DNA from: Candidatus Poribacteria bacterium
GTDB lineage: Bacteria > Poribacteria > WGA-4E > WGA-3G
Direction: 5' to 3'
Assembly (NCBI GenBank): GCA_022821965.1
Contig: JAJECN010000042.1
Location: 1 to 64,000 of the forward strand
DNA length: 64,000 nucleotides
Positions within the stretch are counted from its first letter, which is position 1; each line of letters begins with the position of its first letter. Below the pieces are notes generated by a model. The model made no database searches and was not told the DNA's origin. It saw nothing but the letters and a program-made list of their open reading frames with translations. Shown in pieces: positions 4,850 to 57,448 of this stretch. The position numbers and the translations under genes are program-made.

Positions 4850-4951
4850 AATATCATGTGGTTAACATTAGTAAACTGAGGCATCATTGATCGGTGTACT
4901 TAAGAGGCGAGGTTGAAAACCTCGCCAGCAGAGCGTTTACCACAAGATATT
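4850..4951. repeat. Miniature inverted-repeat element upstream of the ATPase-PIN pair
   Basis: The ends AATATCATGTGGTTAAC (4850-4866) and GTTTACCACAAGATATT (4935-4951) are inverted repeats matching at 15 of 17 bases. A central hairpin GGCGAGGTT-gaa-AACCTCGCC occupies 4906-4926. The same hairpin with a different loop is found at 57424-57444. No coding potential. Confidence 0.65.
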
Positions 4952-13493: not shown

Positions 13494-13506
13494 GTTTCTC
13501 CTATAG

Positions 13507-13790
13507 TAACCCAAGTTGCCACTAATGAGTTTTTGAACATTTCAAGAAGATTCTTCAAGTGTTTCCCTACCCCGTAGGGGTAATATTGCTTCGCAGTGAG
13601 AATAGAAACAGCGTATCTAAGCAACCGCACCCCGTATGAAATTTAATAAAATATTTGGGTAATTCTACGCTCTCCCAAGCCCGGTAGGTGCGGTTTCCTA
13701 ACCGCACCGGACATCGGAAAAAATTACCCGATTAAATAGTTAATCTTCATTAGGGGTGCTATGTCTATGCATAGGTGGCAACTTACGTTA
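13507..13790. repeat. Dispersed inverted-repeat element, copy A, interrupted
   Basis: The ends TAACCCAAGTTGCCAC and GTGGCAACTTACGTTA pair at 14 of 16 bases. Inside are small palindromes (GAAGATTCTTC; CCCTACcccGTAGGGG). A related uninterrupted copy lies at 55185-55340. Copy A carries an extra 114-base segment at 13637-13750. The element begins inside the leader of the MoxR gene. Confidence 0.7.
13637..13750. mobile_element. Nested miniature element (TA-flanked) inside copy A
   Basis: This segment is absent from the copy at 55185-55340. It is flanked by TA (13635-13636 and 13751-13752), begins TGAA and ends TTCAT. It contains a strong stem GGTGCGGTT (13687-13695) with AACCGCACC (13700-13708), and an outer pair GGGTAATT (13657-13664) with AATTACCC (13722-13729). 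TA duplication would suit an IS630/mariner-type miniature element. No coding capacity. Confidence 0.6.
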
Positions 13791-13803
13791 TAGTATAGTT
13801 TCC

Positions 13804-13894
13804 AGTTTTCAGTCATTAGTTAAGAGATATGTTGTGGCAGCGGCAGAAAATGTTACCACTACAGAGATTAACTGACAACTGACGACTGAAAACT
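13804..13894. repeat. Palindromic intercistronic repeat (TGTCAGTT family)
   Basis: AGTTTTCAGTC (13804-13814) pairs perfectly with GACTGAAAACT (13884-13894). The inner core 'GTTAAGAGATATGTTGTGGCAG' region resembles that of the copy at 11411-11543. The right arm overlaps the stop codon of the gene at 13893-15377. Confidence 0.6.
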
Positions 13895-15377
13895 ATTTAC
13901 TACTCGGCTTAATCGATTCAAAGTAGCGTTTCACGTAAAACTTATAACCCAATGGAATCTGTTCTTGGGTGAGGACATCCTCGGAAAGCTTCTGATACTT
14001 CGTGTACGCGTCTTTATAACTCACAGCGGATTGCTGACCTTCTGCAGATGTCTTAGAGGTTTGGATGGTCGATGCCCCTTCACCTTGAACACCCGTAATC
14101 TGTTCAAGATTCAAGACAGAATCAAGAGATGTCACTTGACCGAGTTGACTCGCCGATGTTTTGTTACCCGCTCCATCGCTCGGACCGAGGCTCAGGGCAT
14201 GTGTCAACCCCGTAGCCTTATTAATTCCCGCGGCACTACAAGCCCCGGCGATACCTGCCTTACAAGCTTCACATTCGGAAAGTAACTCTGCTAACCGAAC
14301 ATTTCGATTTTTGAGGAGTGCGAGATCCCGGATTTTTTTGCTCGATGCGCGGAGCCGAACGCTTGCTCCTTCGATATCGGCACCAGCTAACCCTTCGCCT
14401 GCCGCTGATAATTCGCCTCCAAGTCCATCAAGATCAGTCCCTTTGAGGTGCTGTCCACCCCGTTTGAGTGCATCAGAAAGGTTTTGACGTTTCTCTTTGT
14501 CGGACTTCGGCAAATCTTTGGTTACGTCGTCAAGTTTCGTCGCTGCTTGTTGATAATCGCCACGTTTCAACTGGTGTCCGAATTCGCCGAGGTAGGGATT
14601 ACCGATGAACTGTTGCCCTAACCCCTTCATGAGTTCTTGCTGCTGTGCCATCTTGAGCGGATCAATCTTTGTCTTCAAGAGCGCGCTCAACTCCGTCATT
14701 CGGGCAAGTGCCTCTTTCGGGGCGATCTGCGGTTTCTTTAATTCCAATGCTCTTTTCTCAATTTCTTCCAAGAGCTCCTCAAGTTCTGTATCCTCGTCCC
14801 GTTCCGCTTCCTTCTTCACTTCCTCAATCCGCTTCAACAGTGTGTCCGCTTCGGCTGCGATTTGCGGCGAGAAGTCAATTTCGGTTGAAGTCGCTGAGGG
14901 TGCGAAAAATTCAACAAATGAAAAGGCAACGAGAAAAGCAGCGATAAGCACAATGAATTTCGTCTCGCGCGGGACAACGTAGCGAGCGACCTGCTTCACC
15001 GGTATTGCTTTTAACCTGTTAGAGGTATCCTGAAGTTGGAGAGCTGTCAAAGGTTCATCAATCCGCTGCTGAATTTGTTCCAAGCCACTCACGACGCGGT
15101 CCTTGAGGGAGGCATCTGTATCAATTCTCCGCGCCGTCTCGTAGAGACTCACAGGTCGAATGAGACGCACCACAAAGGCACCTACAGCAACACCGAGTGC
15201 CACCCAGAGAAAAACGAGGGGTGGGACGTTAAAAGATGTGACACTGTCAACAATAACTAAGGGAATGCACGCCAAAAATCCGTAGAAGAGGAACGTCGCG
15301 AAGGTCTGAAAATACTTTTGAATGTTCAGACGGTGGCGGACGCTCCGAATTTTTTCGAGAATTAATTTTTCGTCCAT
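13893..15377 (-). CDS. Membrane protein with coiled-coil region (MoxR cluster)
   Basis: 494 residues. Three likely membrane helices lie at about 22-45, 53-75 and 138-160, followed by a long charged, helical region (about 175-290) rich in Glu and Lys. A Gly/Ala-rich middle ('GGQHLKGTDLDGLGGELSAAGEGLAGADIEG') and a less ordered tail follow. The topology resembles DUF4175-like proteins found with MoxR/BatA clusters, but I cannot assign it firmly. The ATG at 15377 has AAGGAG 9 bases upstream. The stop codon (TAG) falls in a palindromic repeat. It probably acts as a membrane scaffold between the giant TPR protein and the vWA proteins; that is inference. Confidence 0.75.
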   Translation of the reverse strand: MDEKLILEKIRSVRHRLNIQKYFQTFATFLFYGFLACIPLVIVDSVTSFNVPPLVFLWVALGVAVGAFVVRLIRPVSLYETARRIDTDASLKDRVVSGLEQIQQRIDEPLTALQLQDTSNRLKAIPVKQVARYVVPRETKFIVLIAAFLVAFSFVEFFAPSATSTEIDFSPQIAAEADTLLKRIEEVKKEAERDEDTELEELLEEIEKRALELKKPQIAPKEALARMTELSALLKTKIDPLKMAQQQELMKGLGQQFIGNPYLGEFGHQLKRGDYQQAATKLDDVTKDLPKSDKEKRQNLSDALKRGGQHLKGTDLDGLGGELSAAGEGLAGADIEGASVRLRASSKKIRDLALLKNRNVRLAELLSECEACKAGIAGACSAAGINKATGLTHALSLGPSDGAGNKTSASQLGQVTSLDSVLNLEQITGVQGEGASTIQTSKTSAEGQQSAVSYKDAYTKYQKLSEDVLTQEQIPLGYKFYVKRYFESIKPSSK

Positions 15378-15549: not shown

Positions 15550-18500
15550 TTAATTCTCCTCCGACCCACTGAGTTTTAAATCTGTAAAAGGTTCTCCATC
15601 CATGTCAGTAAGCCTTAAATAGAATCCCAAACCGTACATGTTCTCACAACAAACTTTGACGAGAATACTGTTTTCACCTGCCTTGAGCGTTATCGGAATG
15701 GTATCCTGATCCATCGCGAGGTTATGAGAGTCGCTATGGGTGAAGACCTCTTCGCCGTTTACCCAAAGTTTCGCCTGAACACCACTGCCAAAATGGAGCT
15801 GGGCTTTCCGCTCGTCGGGTGAGTTCATAATTGTCCAAGCGTAAGCAGTACTCCAATTGACATTCTTGTCGAAGATTTCTCGCAAATCAACGAACCCGTC
15901 GAAAACATCATCCGCCTGCTTCTTCCAACTTACCTGCTCATCTACCCCATCATATTCCACTGTTGTGTCAAACTGCGTCTCGGTCTCCGGGATATAAACC
16001 TTATTATACCCGATTCCGTCCGCGTTGTCAAACGTACCAATGATCCACCACGCATTCTCAGGGATGAAGGCAGTTTTATCCATATACGCTTTTGCCTTTT
16101 CAGGGAGATCACGTTCATGATAGAATTGCGCCAGTGTCACATCGGCATATAATTTAGTTGTCGGATTACTGGAACGGAGATTTACCAGTTCATTCACCAT
16201 TTCAACGTAACGCTCTTCGTCCTTGGCATTTTTACCTGCTTGAGCAACGCGTGCCCAAAAACTTCTTCCCATATTTGAGTAGCTCTGACTCATGCTGCTC
16301 ATACCGCGTTTGAACTGTTGCAGTGCTTCCTCATACCGGTCATTCGTGACATAAGCATCCGCCAACGTTAAGGCGAAATCCCAACCACTCCGCATTTGCG
16401 AGGCGCGCTCAGCGATTTCCAACGCCACCTCCGGCATGATGCCCTTTTTCAGAAGCTGATCAGCGAGATAACGATAGTCCCACTCGCGTTGCGTCCGATT
16501 CACCTCTTTCTGTCGAATCGCCAGCCATTCGGCGTATACAGCGTCCGCTTTTTCCACATCCTCTGCTTCTTTATAGGCATCCCCTAACAGTTCAAGTAGT
16601 GTAGCATTTGTGCGTCCCTTTTCGTCAAAAACTATCTTCAATTCTTCAAGGACAGCGATGCCCTTGTCTTTTTGCTCCGCGTCAGCGTAAAACTCCCAGA
16701 TGCTCCGGAGGGCACCACTATATTCGTGATCCTCAAGGGAAATATCTAAGGCGCGACGGTATACCGCCTCTGCCTCGGATAACCGATCCGCTTTCACGTG
16801 CGTTTGTGCCAACGCCCTATAGAATTGATATGAACTCGGTTCAAGTTCAATCGCTTTTTCATAAGCAGCCCCCGCCTTCGCTAAGCGCGCTGCTTCGTCT
16901 GCCTGAGGCGATTTTTGAGTGAGGTCGCCGATTTTTTTCTGCCATTCAGCGTTGTCAGGTTGAAGTTCGGCAACCTTCTCGTATTGCGCAATTGCTTCGT
17001 CAACTTTACCGCTCCACTCATAAGTTTGCGCGAGCTCGAAGTGGGCATCCGGATCGTCGGGATTGTTTTCAACCCGCTGCAACTGTTCGGGAATTTGCTT
17101 TTCATAAAGGTTCCCTTCCCTATGCACTCGGCGCAAGGCTGCTTCTGCCCGATCCCGCGCATAATTGTGTCTGGAGAGGTTTACCATTTGCTGATACGCA
17201 TTGGCAGCTTCCTCGTACTGTTTCGTGCCCAAGTAACTCTTCCCAAGAATACCATATAAATCCCCGACACCGGACGAGAAACCACCGTATCTCGCACTTG
17301 CAGTGATCGCATCTTCAATGAATTTGATGGCAGCGTCATACATCTCACCTTCAAGACAGATAGATGCAAGTGCCGCGAGGAACCACATATCCCCGCTGCG
17401 GTTGTTCGCTGAAAGCGCGACTTCCCCTTGATCCATCAATTTTTTCGCCAGATCCGGTTGATCCGTTTTATAGAGAGCAGCGGCAGCATAGTAAAAACCG
17501 CGGACATTGCTGGGTTGTGCTTTACAGAGCACCTGATAGGCTTCCGCCGTCTTTTCGTGGTTGTTGTCATTCCGATAAATCTCAGCGATCATCTCAAGCA
17601 ACGCCGGATTATCCGCATCCGCTTCAAGTTTACCCTCAAAGATGTCCTTCAACGCTTCAAGTTTCCCTTGATTTTTATAGGCATTAATCAAGGTTTCGCG
17701 TGCCTCATCTCCACCGAACATGACTTTGATACCTGACGGACCGTGGTTGATTGACATACCCATCGAGCGGGACTGAGACTGCGTTTCATAGAGTTCCATT
17801 GCCAAGTCGTTTTCACCGAGTTGCGCGTAGACTTGTAGTAACTCATTGGCGAGGTGACCTCGCTCCCAGCTTTGGGAGGTCATATCCAACGCTTTCTTGT
17901 AAGTAGTGACCGCTTTTTCCAATTCGCCAGCGTTACGGTACTCTCGTGCGCGCTCCTGTTGCATTTCAAGCGTCAGCGTGCCTGCATCCTCTGCCTGCTT
18001 TAGCATCTCCTCTAACTTACCTTGACGACGGTAGAGATCCATGAGCTGCCGCTCAATATTCTGTCGTTCCCATTCTTGACCTGTGTGTTGAATGGCATCC
18101 TCAAACGCTTTTTCAGCAGCGTCAAGGTCATCTTTACGGAGGTAGAGCCGCGCCAACTTGAGATACGCCTCTCCATCGCCAGTCCCGAGTTCAATCGCTT
18201 TTTTATAGGTGTCAATAGCCGTATCTACTTGATCGTCGGCAGCGTAGAGTTCAGCAAGCCGGACATGGTGAACACTACTTTCCGGATCCGATGCAATATA
18301 TTGCTGCGCGAGTTCAAGTGCTTCATCGGTTTTGTCGGCATCTCGGTAGGTATCAACAAGTCCGTCCTGATACTTCGTATTCTCTGGGTCAGCTTCGAGC
18401 AAAGCACTCCAGATGTCAACCGCTTTATCGTGCTTATTTTGGCGTGAATAGAGCTTTGCCAGCTGTGCCCGTGATTCAAGGTCTTCAGGCATCACCTTTG

Positions 18501-21500
18501 CAATCTGCTCATAAATATCAACAGCCTTCTTAACTTCACCGCGCTGTGCATGTTGCTGTGCCAACGTTCGCTGCATTCCGACGTTGAACTTTGGCGTTTC
18601 TTCAGGCACCCGGGTTGTCGCTGTTGATCCATCGCGTCGCCGTTTAATCTCCGCCAACTGCCGCTGTGCCTGCTCCCGAGTCCACCGTTGTGTTGAGAAA
18701 TCATTGATGATTTCGGTAAAAATCACTTCGGCATCATCGAACATTTCGTGTTGCATGTATGTGTTCGCTATCTGCTCTTTTTCGTAGAAACCTCTCCCTT
18801 GCAACAGCCGGAGGGTTCCCATCTTACGGAACGCATCCTGTGCTTTCTCCTTCTCGTCTTCGCGAGCGTACACTGTGCCGAGTTTTTGGTAACTTTCCGA
18901 GAGACCCCACGTATCCTGTGGGTTCATCTTTGCAATCGCAGTCTCAAGCAGGCGGCGTTCACGGTTTCGGTCATTTGCGGCTCGATAGGCATCCGAGAGA
19001 CTGTTCAACCATTGGGTGTTCACTGATACGGCATCATCATCAAGCAGTCGGTCAACGAATGTTTTTGACCCTTCGAGATCGCCTGCAGCAATCTTCATTG
19101 AGGCAACGAGGTAGAGCAACGCCGGGTCTTCCGGCTTCTCAGTGAGTTTCGCCTCATATTCCGTTACCAACGTCTCTATTCCACCTGATGTTTTATAAAG
19201 CTCGGTAAGTTTCTTTACAATTTCGACTTGTGCATAAGAATCTTGTGTAAGTCCCTTATCCAGAGTGTTCAGTTTCTCGCGCAAGAACTGGATGGCTTTC
19301 TCTGGATCACCAGCAGCAGCGTAAGCAGATGCTAAATCGCGATACGTATAGTACTGGTTCGGTTGGACCTCAACAACCTTTTCATAGAGTTCAATCGCCG
19401 CTTTGGCTCTGTTATTATCCATACACTCGCGTGCTACGCTTCGAGCGAAATCGTTGCCGAAATTCCTGCCAACAGACGGCACGATCATCTCTTTTGCGAG
19501 CGAAACGAGTTCATCAACCTTGCCTGCCTGGAAGAAGGTTTCCATTACTTCCCAGTATTGGTAACCGATTGCATTCGGGTTGTCTTTGAGAAGTATGATG
19601 TATTGGGTAACAGCGTCTTTCGCCTGCCCGCTTCGCTGAAGCATCTGGGCGTACCGTTGTCGCGTCATGTTGTCCTTAGGTCGCAGTGCGAGTGCTGCCT
19701 CAAACGCGTCCGATGCCTTTTTCAGTTGATTGGTACTTTCGTAGAAGGTCGCCAGTTTGACGCGCGCCTGGAACGAATCCGGGTCGTTTTGGACGGCTTC
19801 AATCAATTGAGGTTCGCGCTCCCGTATGGCTTTGGAACGCCCGACCATTTGTGATGCTTGCTGAAAATGCCATGAATACAAACTCTGACCGTACCGGTCG
19901 CGTTGGTTGGCAAAACGCAGGGCACGTTCAGCAATAAGTGCTGCGTCCTTGCCGCGCCCTAAATCCTCTAAATGGCGACCTAAATCTATCAGGAAGTTTG
20001 GATCGCGTTGTGACATTGCCAGCGTTGCTGCTTTCTTAGCGACTGCGACTGCGTACTGCGTAAGCCCACTCTGTTGGAGCTTTTTCGAGAATTGATGCAG
20101 TTCCCGAACACCGATCGGCGAATTCAGTACTTTTGTTACCAACCCACGGACAGTGACGGTGTCCCCTGTATGTGCAGCAAGTTGGAGTGTGAGGTTATAA
20201 TATTGATGGCGGTTTCTTGGGTCTGCCGCAGCAAGTCCCTCAAGTAAATCTAACACCTCCGTATGCTGTCCCGTCTGCACAAGAACGAAAACGGTGTTGA
20301 GTTTGAGCGTAAGGTCATCAGGGAGTTCCTTTTGCAAGGCTGATAGGATTTCCTCTGATTTGTCGCGCTGTCCTTCCCACCAATAGCAGTAACTCAACGC
20401 TAAACCGGGATAGATGCGTTCCCTGCCTTTCGCGACATCCAATTCAGCCTGTAATTTGGCGTACAAAACGTCCTGCTGATTTGCGATCCACAACTGACTG
20501 AAAACCTGCTGGAGATACTGCAAACGGCTCTGATCGTAGTAAGTTGTGGGCGATGGGTAACTTGATTGAAGCGGTGTGTAACCACTGTAGGAGTGAGAGG
20601 CGCGTGCGATGTTTGAGACGCGTCGGGCACTCGCCGCGTAGGGTTTGGTTCGCTCAAAGAATGTCCAGAGTAGAGCAACAGCCTTGTCTGTCTGCTCCGC
20701 ACGAACGTAAGCACTGACGAGGCTTTGATAGATACCTCTATATTGGTTCCACTGTTGCTGCATAGGTGTCGGTCGCCCCATCGTCGAGGTTTGGGGTCCT
20801 GTGGAAAGTGCTGGTACTGGAAGTTGTGCCAGAATTCTCTCTGCCGCGTCGGTCCTGTTCATCTGCGCGAGAGTACTCACCAGCATTGAACCGGTGCGGA
20901 GGTCGGTTACCTCTGCTTCCTCAAGCTCCACCGCCAGTTTTTCAGCATCTACTTTCCATCCGCGACGATAGAAATCGCCAGCGTATTGAGCGACATACCA
21001 GAGTCGTGCCTCGGATGTCAGTCCGGTTATTTCATCAAGGGACTTTTTCAAAGTTTCGTAATCAACGTCCCGCCGCATTGTGCGACTCAATCGCAGACTT
21101 TGATAGAGAGGATCGTTCGGGGATACAGCAAGCAACCGATCAATAGTCTCTTTCGTCTTGTCGGTGTTTTCTGTCAAGATATAGATCTGCACCAATGTTT
21201 CAAGATTCTGGATGTTCTTCGGATTTGCGTCAGCCTCTGCTTCAAATTGTTCAATCAGTTCAGTCAATTTCCGCTGCTGTTGTGCGATTGTTGTCAACTG
21301 CACAAGCGCGCCTGCTCGCGCCTCCTCAAAACTCTTCGGTATCCATCGCTGTCCGCTGCTGCCCCCAAAGGGCTGTCCTTGAATATCCCAGATGAGGTTT
21401 TGCGGGAGATCGAATTTGCGTATGTTGATTCCAGGGGGACCCCATGATGAACTCGCAGTGACGTTCTGCGTTGCGCTATCAGCGGGTTCAGGCATGTCCA

Positions 21501-24360
21501 GAATCCGTTGGAAGTGTGATTGTGCGCGGTCAAGCTCGTTCATCTGAACCAACGCTGCACCGAGCTGATACAGCGCAATATGGGTATCTGTCCCCGTTAT
21601 CTTTTCCGCCGCGCGGTCAAGAACAGAAATCGCTTCATCAAGCAGTCCGTGACGAATCAACAAGGTCGCGAGCCGAATCTCTGCTTCAAGCGGTTGGTTC
21701 TTGGCGTGCAGCAATTTTGTCCACGCTTGAATTGCTTCCTGTTCGCGTCCGACATCAAATAGCAACTCACCGAGTCGCTGCTGATGGATGGGATCGGGTT
21801 GTACCTTGGCGAGTCGCTGTTGATAGGTGAGCGCCTCTTGGGTGTCACCAAGGTCAAGGCTGACTTTGACGAGTTCCGCCAACAGATCCGAGTTTTCACG
21901 CTCCTGATCCAATGCCCGCGCCAGTTGGAAACGTGCGCTTGGTAAGTCTCCCTCCATCTGATAAAGTGCCGCCAACGCAACCACAGGACCTACACCAAAC
22001 GTGTTCGTTTTCGACATCTGCTTCAATTTTTCTTCCAATTCACCCCGTCGTCCGAGGTCGTAATATACCTCAGAGAGCGGTTTGACGAATGCGAGTTTAT
22101 CATTCACGCTTTCGCTTAACTCCCAGCACCGCCAGTACTGCTCAATCGCCTGTCGGGGATTCCCCGAAAGTTTATAAACCTCCGCAAGTTCAGAGCGGAT
22201 GTCGGTTGCTTCCGGTCGAAGGCGAATCGCCTGCTTGAGGCTGTCAACAGCGGTTTCATAGTTTCCAAGCTGCTTGGCGATCTGCGCGAGCATTTGATGC
22301 CCTTCAGGATTGCGCGGACTGTGCGCCACTGCTTGTTTCGCAGCGTCTGTCGCGGCATCAAAATCCATAATGACCAGATGGGCGCGTGCAATGTTTGCAT
22401 AGTATTCCCGTGCATTCGCGCTGTCAATCTCAATCAAATGTGCGTAGATGGCATCGGCTTCATCGCGCAATCCCTGTCGGGTATAGACATCCGCGAGCCA
22501 ACGGTTGATGAGTATATCATCGGGTTGGAGTGCTTTCGTCTTCAAAAGCACTTCAATTGCGTAGGTGATATTCCCCAACTTGAGGTACATCTTGGCAAGC
22601 TGCTTCTGTTGGACAAAGGCATCAGCAGGGTTAATTCCTTGCTCGTTAAGTTCCGCCTCCAATGCCTCAATTTTCCCGACAAGCGTTCCTTGCCTCCGAT
22701 AGATTTCGATCTGCTGGTCAGCCATCTGTTCAGCGAAAAATTCGTTTGGAGCGAGTTTCTCCGCTTCAGCGTATTCTACCAATGCTTCTTCGTAGTTTTT
22801 CGTCTCTGTGAGCCGCTGCGCGAGTGCTTCACGATAGCGATAGGCATCGGGCATCAACGCGACTGCTTCCCGACTTGCAGCGATGGCTTCGGTGCGAAAA
22901 TCCTTGGCATCAAGCAACTTCGCCAATCGGTCATAGTTCTCAGCAGTTGCTTTGTCATCGGCAACCAGTTGATTCCATGTCTCCACAGTCTTTTGACGGT
23001 TGCCCTGACGGAAGTAGAATTCACCGAAATACTCAATATAGTCAAGATTGTTAGATTCAAGGGAAATCGCTTTTTGGTATGCTGCGATGGCATCGTCTAT
23101 CCAGTCATTCCCAGCATAAATTTCGGCGAGGATGAGGTGTGTTCCTGCGTTATCTGGATCCCGGTCAAGCATGCGCTGATATGTTGCCCTTGCCCTGTTT
23201 TCGTCTTCCAACTGCAAGTACAACTCGCCGAGTTCACGGTAGATGCCAAAATCGTCAGGTTGCTGCTCGCTGAGGGATTCATAAGCGGCTGCCGCGTCTT
23301 CAAATTTTTCAGCACTGCGGAGGGCGGTGATTAAGTTTAATCGGATGCCAGTGTCTGTCGGGGCGAGTTCTACTGCCTTCTGATATGTAGTGATACCTTC
23401 GTCTAATTGCTGGTTCTCAATGTATGCGGCAGCGAGCAAACCGATGAGTTCCGGGTCGTTCGGTGTGTCCTCAAGTTTCTTTTCATAGTGCCCAATCAGC
23501 CCTTCCCAATTGCCATCAGCGGCGTAGATACCGATAATCCGGTGTTGAAGGTCTTTCCGTAGCCAATTGCCTGGTGCTGTTAAAGCCATCGCAGTATCGT
23601 AACTTTGAATGGCATCCTCATAATCGCCTTTTGCCTCGTGAATGTTCCCAATTTCCCGACGACTCAAGCAGATCCGATACGGATCCTCTGTTTTAAGTTG
23701 AATAATCGCTTCATGTTGCGCGATTGCCTGATCATAGAGTTCCTGCTCTCGGAAAAGATCCGCGAGTTCAATACGGGAGAAGATGTTTTCCGGATCAAGT
23801 TCAGGGATTTTTCCCCACGCCGCAATCGCTTCGTCCACCCGGTCTCGGCTGAAGTAGGCGCGCCCAAGTGCTTTATATACATCCATCAACTCTTCAGGAG
23901 ATGCCGCCTGTGTTTCTTCCGATAATTCTGCTGCCTTCGTCAATTCACCGATCGCCTCTTCATGTCGTCGCAACGTTGCGTACATCTGTCCCAATGCAAA
24001 ATGCGCGTAATAATCGTTCGGAGCAAGTTCAACAGCGCGTTGATACGCTGCGACGGTCTCAAGGTCCTTTCCGAGACGTTTGTAGATGTGTCCCAAGATG
24101 AGTTGGATGTTTGAATCGTCGGGTTTGGCTTGTGCTTCTGCTTGATAGTCGGTTACCATAGCATCTAAACCCGTACCTTCCAGATAAAACTGGTAGAGTC
24201 GATCAAACGTACTCCCCTCTTTCGGATTGCGATTGAGCATTAACTTGTAGCGTTCAATGATTTGTTCGTCTTGGGCAAAACTAATTGAGGAAAGATAAAG
24301 GGTACAGGATATAAGATACAACACACATACGACAACTGAGAATTTTTCTCGTCCAAACAT
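15550..24360 (-). CDS. Giant exported TPR protein with C-terminal jelly-roll-like domain
   Basis: 2936 residues. A signal peptide occupies about 1-30 ('VVVCVLYLISCTLYLSSISFAQDE'). Tetratricopeptide repeats then run almost without break to about residue 2780, seen as 34-residue units such as 'AVELAPNDYYAHFALGQMY' and 'AIELEPSSYQFYRALAQTH'. Two short non-TPR insertions are visible, around 980-1010 ('GPPGINIRKFDLPQNLIWD') and near 2200 ('SINHGPSGIKVMFGGDE'). The last 150 residues are beta-rich ('WTIMNSPDERKAQLHFGSG', 'KLWVNGEEVFTHSD', 'LKAGENSILVKVCC') and resemble the jelly-roll of PA14/glycosidase-accessory domains. The ATG at 24360 has AAGGAG 8 bases upstream. As first gene of the cluster it may be a periplasmic scaffold for the Bat-type membrane complex. 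That is inference. Confidence 0.9.
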   Translation of the reverse strand: MFGREKFSVVVCVLYLISCTLYLSSISFAQDEQIIERYKLMLNRNPKEGSTFDRLYQFYLEGTGLDAMVTDYQAEAQAKPDDSNIQLILGHIYKRLGKDLETVAAYQRAVELAPNDYYAHFALGQMYATLRRHEEAIGELTKAAELSEETQAASPEELMDVYKALGRAYFSRDRVDEAIAAWGKIPELDPENIFSRIELADLFREQELYDQAIAQHEAIIQLKTEDPYRICLSRREIGNIHEAKGDYEDAIQSYDTAMALTAPGNWLRKDLQHRIIGIYAADGNWEGLIGHYEKKLEDTPNDPELIGLLAAAYIENQQLDEGITTYQKAVELAPTDTGIRLNLITALRSAEKFEDAAAAYESLSEQQPDDFGIYRELGELYLQLEDENRARATYQRMLDRDPDNAGTHLILAEIYAGNDWIDDAIAAYQKAISLESNNLDYIEYFGEFYFRQGNRQKTVETWNQLVADDKATAENYDRLAKLLDAKDFRTEAIAASREAVALMPDAYRYREALAQRLTETKNYEEALVEYAEAEKLAPNEFFAEQMADQQIEIYRRQGTLVGKIEALEAELNEQGINPADAFVQQKQLAKMYLKLGNITYAIEVLLKTKALQPDDILINRWLADVYTRQGLRDEADAIYAHLIEIDSANAREYYANIARAHLVIMDFDAATDAAKQAVAHSPRNPEGHQMLAQIAKQLGNYETAVDSLKQAIRLRPEATDIRSELAEVYKLSGNPRQAIEQYWRCWELSESVNDKLAFVKPLSEVYYDLGRRGELEEKLKQMSKTNTFGVGPVVALAALYQMEGDLPSARFQLARALDQERENSDLLAELVKVSLDLGDTQEALTYQQRLAKVQPDPIHQQRLGELLFDVGREQEAIQAWTKLLHAKNQPLEAEIRLATLLIRHGLLDEAISVLDRAAEKITGTDTHIALYQLGAALVQMNELDRAQSHFQRILDMPEPADSATQNVTASSSWGPPGINIRKFDLPQNLIWDIQGQPFGGSSGQRWIPKSFEEARAGALVQLTTIAQQQRKLTELIEQFEAEADANPKNIQNLETLVQIYILTENTDKTKETIDRLLAVSPNDPLYQSLRLSRTMRRDVDYETLKKSLDEITGLTSEARLWYVAQYAGDFYRRGWKVDAEKLAVELEEAEVTDLRTGSMLVSTLAQMNRTDAAERILAQLPVPALSTGPQTSTMGRPTPMQQQWNQYRGIYQSLVSAYVRAEQTDKAVALLWTFFERTKPYAASARRVSNIARASHSYSGYTPLQSSYPSPTTYYDQSRLQYLQQVFSQLWIANQQDVLYAKLQAELDVAKGRERIYPGLALSYCYWWEGQRDKSEEILSALQKELPDDLTLKLNTVFVLVQTGQHTEVLDLLEGLAAADPRNRHQYYNLTLQLAAHTGDTVTVRGLVTKVLNSPIGVRELHQFSKKLQQSGLTQYAVAVAKKAATLAMSQRDPNFLIDLGRHLEDLGRGKDAALIAERALRFANQRDRYGQSLYSWHFQQASQMVGRSKAIREREPQLIEAVQNDPDSFQARVKLATFYESTNQLKKASDAFEAALALRPKDNMTRQRYAQMLQRSGQAKDAVTQYIILLKDNPNAIGYQYWEVMETFFQAGKVDELVSLAKEMIVPSVGRNFGNDFARSVARECMDNNRAKAAIELYEKVVEVQPNQYYTYRDLASAYAAAGDPEKAIQFLREKLNTLDKGLTQDSYAQVEIVKKLTELYKTSGGIETLVTEYEAKLTEKPEDPALLYLVASMKIAAGDLEGSKTFVDRLLDDDAVSVNTQWLNSLSDAYRAANDRNRERRLLETAIAKMNPQDTWGLSESYQKLGTVYAREDEKEKAQDAFRKMGTLRLLQGRGFYEKEQIANTYMQHEMFDDAEVIFTEIINDFSTQRWTREQAQRQLAEIKRRRDGSTATTRVPEETPKFNVGMQRTLAQQHAQRGEVKKAVDIYEQIAKVMPEDLESRAQLAKLYSRQNKHDKAVDIWSALLEADPENTKYQDGLVDTYRDADKTDEALELAQQYIASDPESSVHHVRLAELYAADDQVDTAIDTYKKAIELGTGDGEAYLKLARLYLRKDDLDAAEKAFEDAIQHTGQEWERQNIERQLMDLYRRQGKLEEMLKQAEDAGTLTLEMQQERAREYRNAGELEKAVTTYKKALDMTSQSWERGHLANELLQVYAQLGENDLAMELYETQSQSRSMGMSINHGPSGIKVMFGGDEARETLINAYKNQGKLEALKDIFEGKLEADADNPALLEMIAEIYRNDNNHEKTAEAYQVLCKAQPSNVRGFYYAAAALYKTDQPDLAKKLMDQGEVALSANNRSGDMWFLAALASICLEGEMYDAAIKFIEDAITASARYGGFSSGVGDLYGILGKSYLGTKQYEEAANAYQQMVNLSRHNYARDRAEAALRRVHREGNLYEKQIPEQLQRVENNPDDPDAHFELAQTYEWSGKVDEAIAQYEKVAELQPDNAEWQKKIGDLTQKSPQADEAARLAKAGAAYEKAIELEPSSYQFYRALAQTHVKADRLSEAEAVYRRALDISLEDHEYSGALRSIWEFYADAEQKDKGIAVLEELKIVFDEKGRTNATLLELLGDAYKEAEDVEKADAVYAEWLAIRQKEVNRTQREWDYRYLADQLLKKGIMPEVALEIAERASQMRSGWDFALTLADAYVTNDRYEEALQQFKRGMSSMSQSYSNMGRSFWARVAQAGKNAKDEERYVEMVNELVNLRSSNPTTKLYADVTLAQFYHERDLPEKAKAYMDKTAFIPENAWWIIGTFDNADGIGYNKVYIPETETQFDTTVEYDGVDEQVSWKKQADDVFDGFVDLREIFDKNVNWSTAYAWTIMNSPDERKAQLHFGSGVQAKLWVNGEEVFTHSDSHNLAMDQDTIPITLKAGENSILVKVCCENMYGLGFYLRLTDMDGEPFTDLKLSGSEEN

Positions 24361-55168: not shown

Positions 55169-55184
55169 GCTTTTTCCTCCGTTT

Positions 55185-55340
55185 TAACCCAAGTTGCTAC
55201 TAACGAGTTTTTGAACATTTTAAGAAGATTCTTCAGGTGTTTCCCTACCTCGTAGGGGTAATATATCTATAGAAACAGCGTCCCTAAGCAACTGCACCCT
55301 GTAGGGGTGCTATGTCTATGCATACGTGGCAACTTGCGTC
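55185..55340. repeat. Dispersed inverted-repeat element, copy B, uninterrupted
   Basis: Aligns with 13507-13790 from TAACCCAAGTTGC to GTGGCAACTT, without the 114-base segment present there; at the junction it reads CCCTGTAGGGGTGC. A further small deletion of about 8 bases lies near 55266. Outer arms pair less well than in copy A. Confidence 0.7.
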
Positions 55341-55351
55341 GTTTTAGTAGG

Positions 55352-57421: not shown

Positions 57422-57448
57422 GAGGCGAGGTTCCAAACCTCGCCAGCG
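57422..57448. repeat. GGCGAGGTT hairpin repeat
   Basis: GGCGAGGTT-cca-AACCTCGCC (57424-57444) with flanking GA and AGC shared with the hairpin at 4906-4926. The remaining gap to 57505 has nothing else that I can support. Confidence 0.5.

Follow-up and report, generated by a model that had tools for sequence, protein, structure and literature searches.

Transposons of the IS630/Tc1-mariner group are the textbook case of insertion at TA only, and structures from the family trace this choice to base flipping at TA. Their DDE transposases join both 3' ends of the element to staggered positions of the target. Insertion sequences IS1397 and IS621 integrate into palindromic intergenic REP/PU repeats. 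For ISY100, the stagger corresponds to the 2-bp TA (PMC2170065). IS1272/TnSha1, members of the IS1182 family in staphylococci, select target secondary structure, that is, inverted repeats without a shared sequence (PMC5678879, PMC4923244). SMR-A of Haloquadratum walsbyi is an abundant repeat of about 110 bp with terminal inverted repeats that resides inside the palindromes of other mobile elements; according to the report, it generates no target duplication and its mobiliser is not known (PMC3119063).

Here we analyse a 64,000-nucleotide stretch from a Candidatus Poribacteria genome (the window), in which a miniature element, I, sits inside another, O. By profile match of its transposase, by size and by its single gene, terminal inverted repeats and derived MITEs, the system to which I belongs resembles IS630 and ISY100. 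Whereas those elements insert at and duplicate TA (PMC2170065), this one enters hairpins at their 3-nt loop, duplicating one base of any kind. It targets structure, as IS1272/TnSha1 do, but these delete the stem-loop or part of the stem without duplication, whereas here the hairpin is kept, interrupted at its loop and left with a 1-bp duplication, and the transposase belongs to another family. As judged from its published description, SMR-A is similar in size, terminal inverted repeats, abundance and palindromic targets; what differs here is the 1-bp duplication and an IS630-type transposase gene enclosed by the same ends. IS1397 and IS621 likewise choose palindromic repeats, but theirs are defined by sequence and their transposases are of other families. 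An IS630/Tc1-mariner element with a hairpin target was not found in the literature searched, which misses most subscription journals.

Results

Two copies of the O element, one with a nested unit

An initial annotation of the window had proposed that two copies of a repeat, A and B, represent the states after and before the insertion of a TA-flanked segment with inverted repeats of its own. Both copies exist and align, with slightly refined borders (Table 1). The ends of O copy A (ACCCAAGTTGCCAC / ACGTAAGTTGCCAC) are inverted, and ACSCAAGTTGCYAC is typical of the inverted ends of O copies, of which the genome holds about 10. Target duplications of 7-9 bp, mostly AT-rich, accompany at least 10 copies and include TATAGTA (copy A), CGTTTTA (copy B), TAATTATTA, TATATCTTT, TATAATA, TACATATA and AATATTTA, among others. 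In two relatives (L175 and L177), the sequence at the locus orthologous to copy A is ...CTCCTATAGTATAGTTT..., containing one TATAGTA and no element. Since O and I are missing there together, copy A corresponds to an entire O insertion that is absent from these relatives. O thus displays the MITE features tested: inverted ends, 7-9-bp duplications and an empty orthologous site.

About 17% of the positions aligned between copies A and B are mismatched, and an 11-bp indel separates them in addition, so that they are not alleles; the two are paralogues rather than before and after states of one locus. The proposed before/after pair therefore holds insofar as B displays the uninserted target, but not as a single locus in two states, given that the orthologous loci lack O and I as a whole. 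A better stand-in than B for the pre-insertion state of A is its nearest sibling, L004, with 93% identity across the left part of O. No mobiliser of O was found in its own genome or, in further genomes, among the matches listed; the open reading frames of a candidate larger O-type element (C57:332004-334092) are not transposases.

At other loci, in the related genomes G005, G020 and G015, O-type elements measure 280-293 bp and have 7-9-bp duplications of their own (L239, L240, L242, L244). In two of them, an I unit was recognised within this same hairpin of O; nested O and I may move as one unit, or the O hairpin may be hit repeatedly. Adjoining O copy A, the window carries an imperfect inverted repeat at 13795-13896 (AGTTTTCAGTCATTAGTTAA ... 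TTAACTGACAACTGACGACTGAAAACT), and comparable CAGTTTTCAGT-type repeats lie beside several I insertions (L020, L041, L217). A single open reading frame of 2,936 aa, very long for a bacterium, occupies 15550-24360 on the minus strand of the window.

Table 1. Positions of the elements, duplications and hairpins in the window
Feature	Position	Strand	Properties and basis
O element copy A	13509-13788	+	280 bp including nested I; inverted ends, 7-bp duplication, empty orthologous sites
Left target duplication of O copy A, TATAGTA	13502-13508		Exact repeat at 13789-13795; single copy in L175 and L177
Right target duplication of O copy A, TATAGTA	13789-13795		Matches 13502-13508
Left arm GCACCCC (13627-13633) with loop bases G13634 and T13635 (duplicated base)	13627-13635	+	Sibling O copies lacking I: GCACCCTGTAGGGGTGC
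I element, 115-bp miniature of IS630-family transposon	13636-13750	-	Ends ATGAARWTTWA / TTWATCTTCAT; own-genome copies; terminal repeats of the 1,241-bp copies
Core hairpin inside I, GGTGCGGTT-TCCT-AACCGCACC	13687-13708		Recurrent repeat; target of further insertion in relatives
Duplicated T13751, loop base A13752 and right arm GGGGTGC (13753-13759)	13751-13759	+	Sibling O copies lacking I
O element copy B	55187-55339	+	153 bp, without I; CGTTTTA at 55180-55186 and 55340-55346
Vacant target hairpin in copy B, GCACCCT-GTA-GGGGTGC	55294-55310		Alignment with copy A

The nested unit recurs independently of O

The extra unit in copy A measures 115 bp (ATGAAATTT...AATCTTCAT), not 114 bp as originally given, and is accompanied by one duplicated T. 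It does possess inverted repeats of its own, as the initial annotation had stated, in the form of imperfect ends of 28-38 bp. With 97-99% identity to own-genome copies at C10:152575 and C26:45536, the unit is present in at least 10 other places of the 5.69-Mb assembly (E down to 2.5e-53). Most of these matches come without O, and I stands alone at about 10 loci, in unrelated hairpins. Its terminal inverted repeat pattern was detected in 42 of 60 related genomes, at up to about 50 places per genome, and the reversed pattern, used as a control, had zero matches across the same 60 genomes. Recurrence at such low E values, together with the blank control, means that I is not a chance similarity. 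Unit lengths cluster at 114-117 bp, with variants of 124 bp, 146-148 bp and others. I is a mobile family separate from O, and the earlier view of one mobile miniature element inserted into another is borne out, with I recurring on its own and empty sites elsewhere.

Empty sites indicate insertion into hairpin loops

In copy A, the letters TA do flank I on both sides (13635-13636 and 13751-13752). On the left, however, the A already belongs to I as its first base, and on the right the A is the one with which the target loop ends. TA is therefore not what was duplicated; its presence is a by-product of the loop GTA and the first base of I. I instead entered the O hairpin GCACCCC-GTA-GGGGTGC and duplicated its T (T13635 and T13751). 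An uninterrupted GTA hairpin is carried by several O siblings.

Empty sites, mostly orthologous, were recovered for about 10 loci and consist of 3-nt-loop hairpins, the filled sites having a 1-bp duplication. The own-genome insertion L005 (GGCGAGGTTAT-I-TAAACCTCGCC, or ...GTTAT-I-TAAAC) is matched by the empty hairpins GGCGAGGTT-ATA-AACCTCGCC in L257 and GGCGAGGTT-AGA-AACCTCGCC in L256. In a third genome (L273), a different subfamily is found at the same base of this locus with the same duplicated T, which points to an independent insertion into the same orthologous hairpin. Further filled and empty pairs have the loops ACA (L197/L295), CAA (L230/L285-L286) and TCA (L236/L289-L291), or are represented by L237/L282-L284, L228/L287, L224/L277-L281, L189/L276 and L041/L264, as well as by L154/L294, in which the empty copy is paralogous. 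Every pair aligns best with exactly one base removed; in the L005 set, where the duplicated base was removed before alignment, no gap then remained at the junction. L216/L266 also supports a single duplicated base, with no good hairpin in the relative. A clean empty site was sought for L014, L020 and L225, and none was obtained.

The window itself contains vacant 3-nt-loop hairpins at 4906-4926 (GGCGAGGTT-GAA-AACCTCGCC) and 57424-57444 (GGCGAGGTT-CCA-AACCTCGCC), whose family is occupied by insertions at other loci (L005, L197).

A target rule from 83 insertions

We compared left and right flanks across a non-redundant set of 83 insertions. Clear hairpin targets were present in 58/83 (65/83 at a looser cut). 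Directly at the junction, the flanking bases were identical in 60/83 before the ends were re-anchored. One base further out, the flanks were unrelated (16/83 complementary, 23/83 identical), and from distance 2 onward they were complementary in 74, 67, 67, 65, 60, 61 and 53 of the 83 cases, the signal fading after about 8-9 bp. With re-anchored ends, at least 6 of 8 arm positions were paired in 58/83 insertions, whereas 2,000 partner shuffles gave 7.5 on average and 16 at most; the junction base was identical in 61/83, against a shuffled mean of 21 and maximum of 34.

Among the 49 cleanest cases, the duplicated base was C in 15, G in 12, A in 12 and T in 10. Loop bases 1 and 3 were complementary in just 3 of these 49, implying that the 3-nt loop is truly unpaired. 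The closing base on the 5' side was a pyrimidine in all 116 half-sites (116/116), and so was the second stem base in 91% of them; this YY-NNN-RR constraint beside the loop amounts to some sequence preference as well. Beyond the two closing pairs, stem positions have no fixed base and the arms, over 7-8 bp, are only complementary to each other. The target can thus be described as a hairpin of about 7-9 bp, with most stems reaching at least 7 bp and a 3-nt loop closed by YY/RR and entered at the loop centre. Judged from the sequences, insertion at the central loop base duplicates that one base, be it A, C, G or T.

Target duplication of TA was rejected as a candidate, with TA on both sides in 2 of the 83 insertions. 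The check suggested by the initial annotation, a search for the unit at other TA sites, found it in hairpin loops instead, with one base duplicated.

The rule has exceptions. About 10 well-formed hairpin sites lack an identical junction base (e.g., L161 and L207), and a few joined flanks (GGTTAG with GAAACC in L160) give a 4-nt loop without duplication. Although loop size varies widely among perfect hairpins of at least 8 bp in the window, the insertions are concentrated in loops of 3 nt, and part of the GGTGCGGTT family may have 4-nt loops. Several insertions, L003 (G000:C9:130922-131099), L186, L194 and L158, are flanked by halves of two different hairpins, one on either side, and look like recombinants of two element copies. 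Beyond these apparent recombinants, the set also includes other non-hairpin insertions.

Full-length copies encode an IS630-type transposase

On contig C117 of the related genome G043, two I-type ends lie 1,241 bp apart and enclose an ORF of 384 aa. Copies of this length, with ends ATGAAG...CTTCAT and a single gene, occur in L136, L158, L160, L161 and L162. The 384-aa protein scored 174 bits against NF033545 (the NCBIfam model of IS630 transposases; cut-off 100) and 79.6 bits against PF13358 (Pfam DDE_3). D191, D273 and E334 are invariant among its homologues and are likely to form the catalytic triad. Intact homologues with 63-81% identity are present in five other relatives (G016, G017, G007, G020, G001), and the homologue in G010 carries a stop; the relatives with a transposase belong to Candidatus Poribacteria. 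The own genome contains no transposase match at E<=1e-10, and so either mobilisation in trans has ceased here or the assembly lacks the gene. An AlphaFold model of the transposase had a mean pLDDT of 55, too low to draw on.

The distant homologue L253 (Singulisphaera, 35%) has ATGAA ends with T on both sides, as a single copy and with no clear hairpin. L254 and L255 match the transposase in its N-terminal part only, and a search for element ends there found none. Plasmid homologues are only about 27% identical.

Both L160 and L162 follow the loop-centre rule. Full-length L162 occupies the hairpin of O that is also filled in copy A, in an O with its own 8-bp duplication; full-length L160 lies in an I element, at its core hairpin, and this I is in turn inside another hairpin. 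The core hairpin of I has about 30 separate matches in the own genome. In L113 (G006:C4), one I is nested in the core hairpin of another (1553-1681 inside 1501-1744).

Short, non-coding and sharing terminal repeats and the loop-centre rule with the autonomous copies, I is, as far as sequence can tell, a non-autonomous MITE of the 1,241-bp IS630-family insertion sequence that has spread through Poribacteria. The DDE type of transposase, the length in the range of about 1.1-1.3 kb, the single gene and the terminal inverted repeats are those of IS630, whereas insertion at and duplication of TA are not shared. Nor is it an IS1182-family element of the IS1272 type, as the transposase matches IS630 models, the hairpin is retained and a base is duplicated. 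The element accordingly carries an IS630-type transposase yet falls outside the IS630 family in the target-site sense.

Discussion

How might an IS630-type element come to reside in the middle of hairpin loops? We put at roughly 80% the probability that I is a MITE of an IS630-type insertion sequence which enters 3-nt hairpin loops at their centre, its transposase capturing an extruded hairpin or cruciform. We envision that the transposase acts in trans on such a structure and is guided by the 3-nt loop rather than by base sequence. Both transposon 3' ends would be joined where loop base 1 is linked to loop base 2, in the hairpin of each strand. On the duplex, the two joints would lie 1 bp apart across the centre of the palindrome, and repair of the gaps would yield the 1-bp duplication. 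We infer that such hairpins are extruded in the cell.

The closest competitor dispenses with extrusion: a transposase dimer might recognise, in duplex DNA, dyad symmetry with a central YY...RR and make a 1-bp staggered cut at the axis. The strict YY-NNN-RR beside the junction is what one would expect of a dimeric duplex reader, and symmetry is inherent in a 1-bp stagger placed on a dyad axis. Beyond the two closing pairs, however, the arms have complementarity over 7-8 bp in common and no sequence, and the rarity of complementary loop bases 1 and 3 (3/49) is not required by a pure reader of symmetry, which makes duplex reading unlikely in our view. Far less probable still is that I is an ordinary TA-specific IS630 MITE whose association with hairpins reflects selection, insertions being tolerated in terminators and intergenic repeats. 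IS630-family elements studied in vitro do insert at TA (PMC2170065), and intergenic hairpins are safe sites, but A, C, G and T are duplicated with similar frequency (12, 15, 12 and 10), comparison with empty sites reveals no duplicated TA at the junction, and selection for safe sites would not single out the base at the very centre of a 3-nt loop.

The initial annotation had itself named a reading that would overturn an insertion, namely that the segment is ancestral to O and was deleted from copy B between TA repeats. TA is indeed found on both sides in copy A, but in 2/83 cases only; about 10 loci of the same genome have the unit by itself, in unrelated hairpins, and several O siblings have the uninterrupted GTA hairpin in common. 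We consider an ancestral segment close to impossible, as it is already refuted by the empty sites at other loci in related genomes.

Insertion into extruded loops has a corollary: the MITE would bring along its own core hairpin, every insertion adding a new landing site, and nested insertions would arise for this reason. In a broader perspective, we lean towards the notion, with less confidence than for the entry into loops as such, that a branch of IS630/Tc1-mariner transposases has switched to structure-guided targeting, with a hairpin bearing a 3-nt loop as the target, the same loop bond attacked on both strands, and a 1-bp duplication and self-amplifying nests of hairpins as the outcome. 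If true, the catalytic core would be separable from the choice of target in IS630/Tc1-mariner, and nature would have supplied a sensor for hairpins extruded in living cells. It would also explain how Poribacteria genomes became filled with nested palindromic repeats. The same principle could account for SMR-A of Haloquadratum, and is a candidate mechanism for further small repeats that are mobile but lack a known mobiliser.
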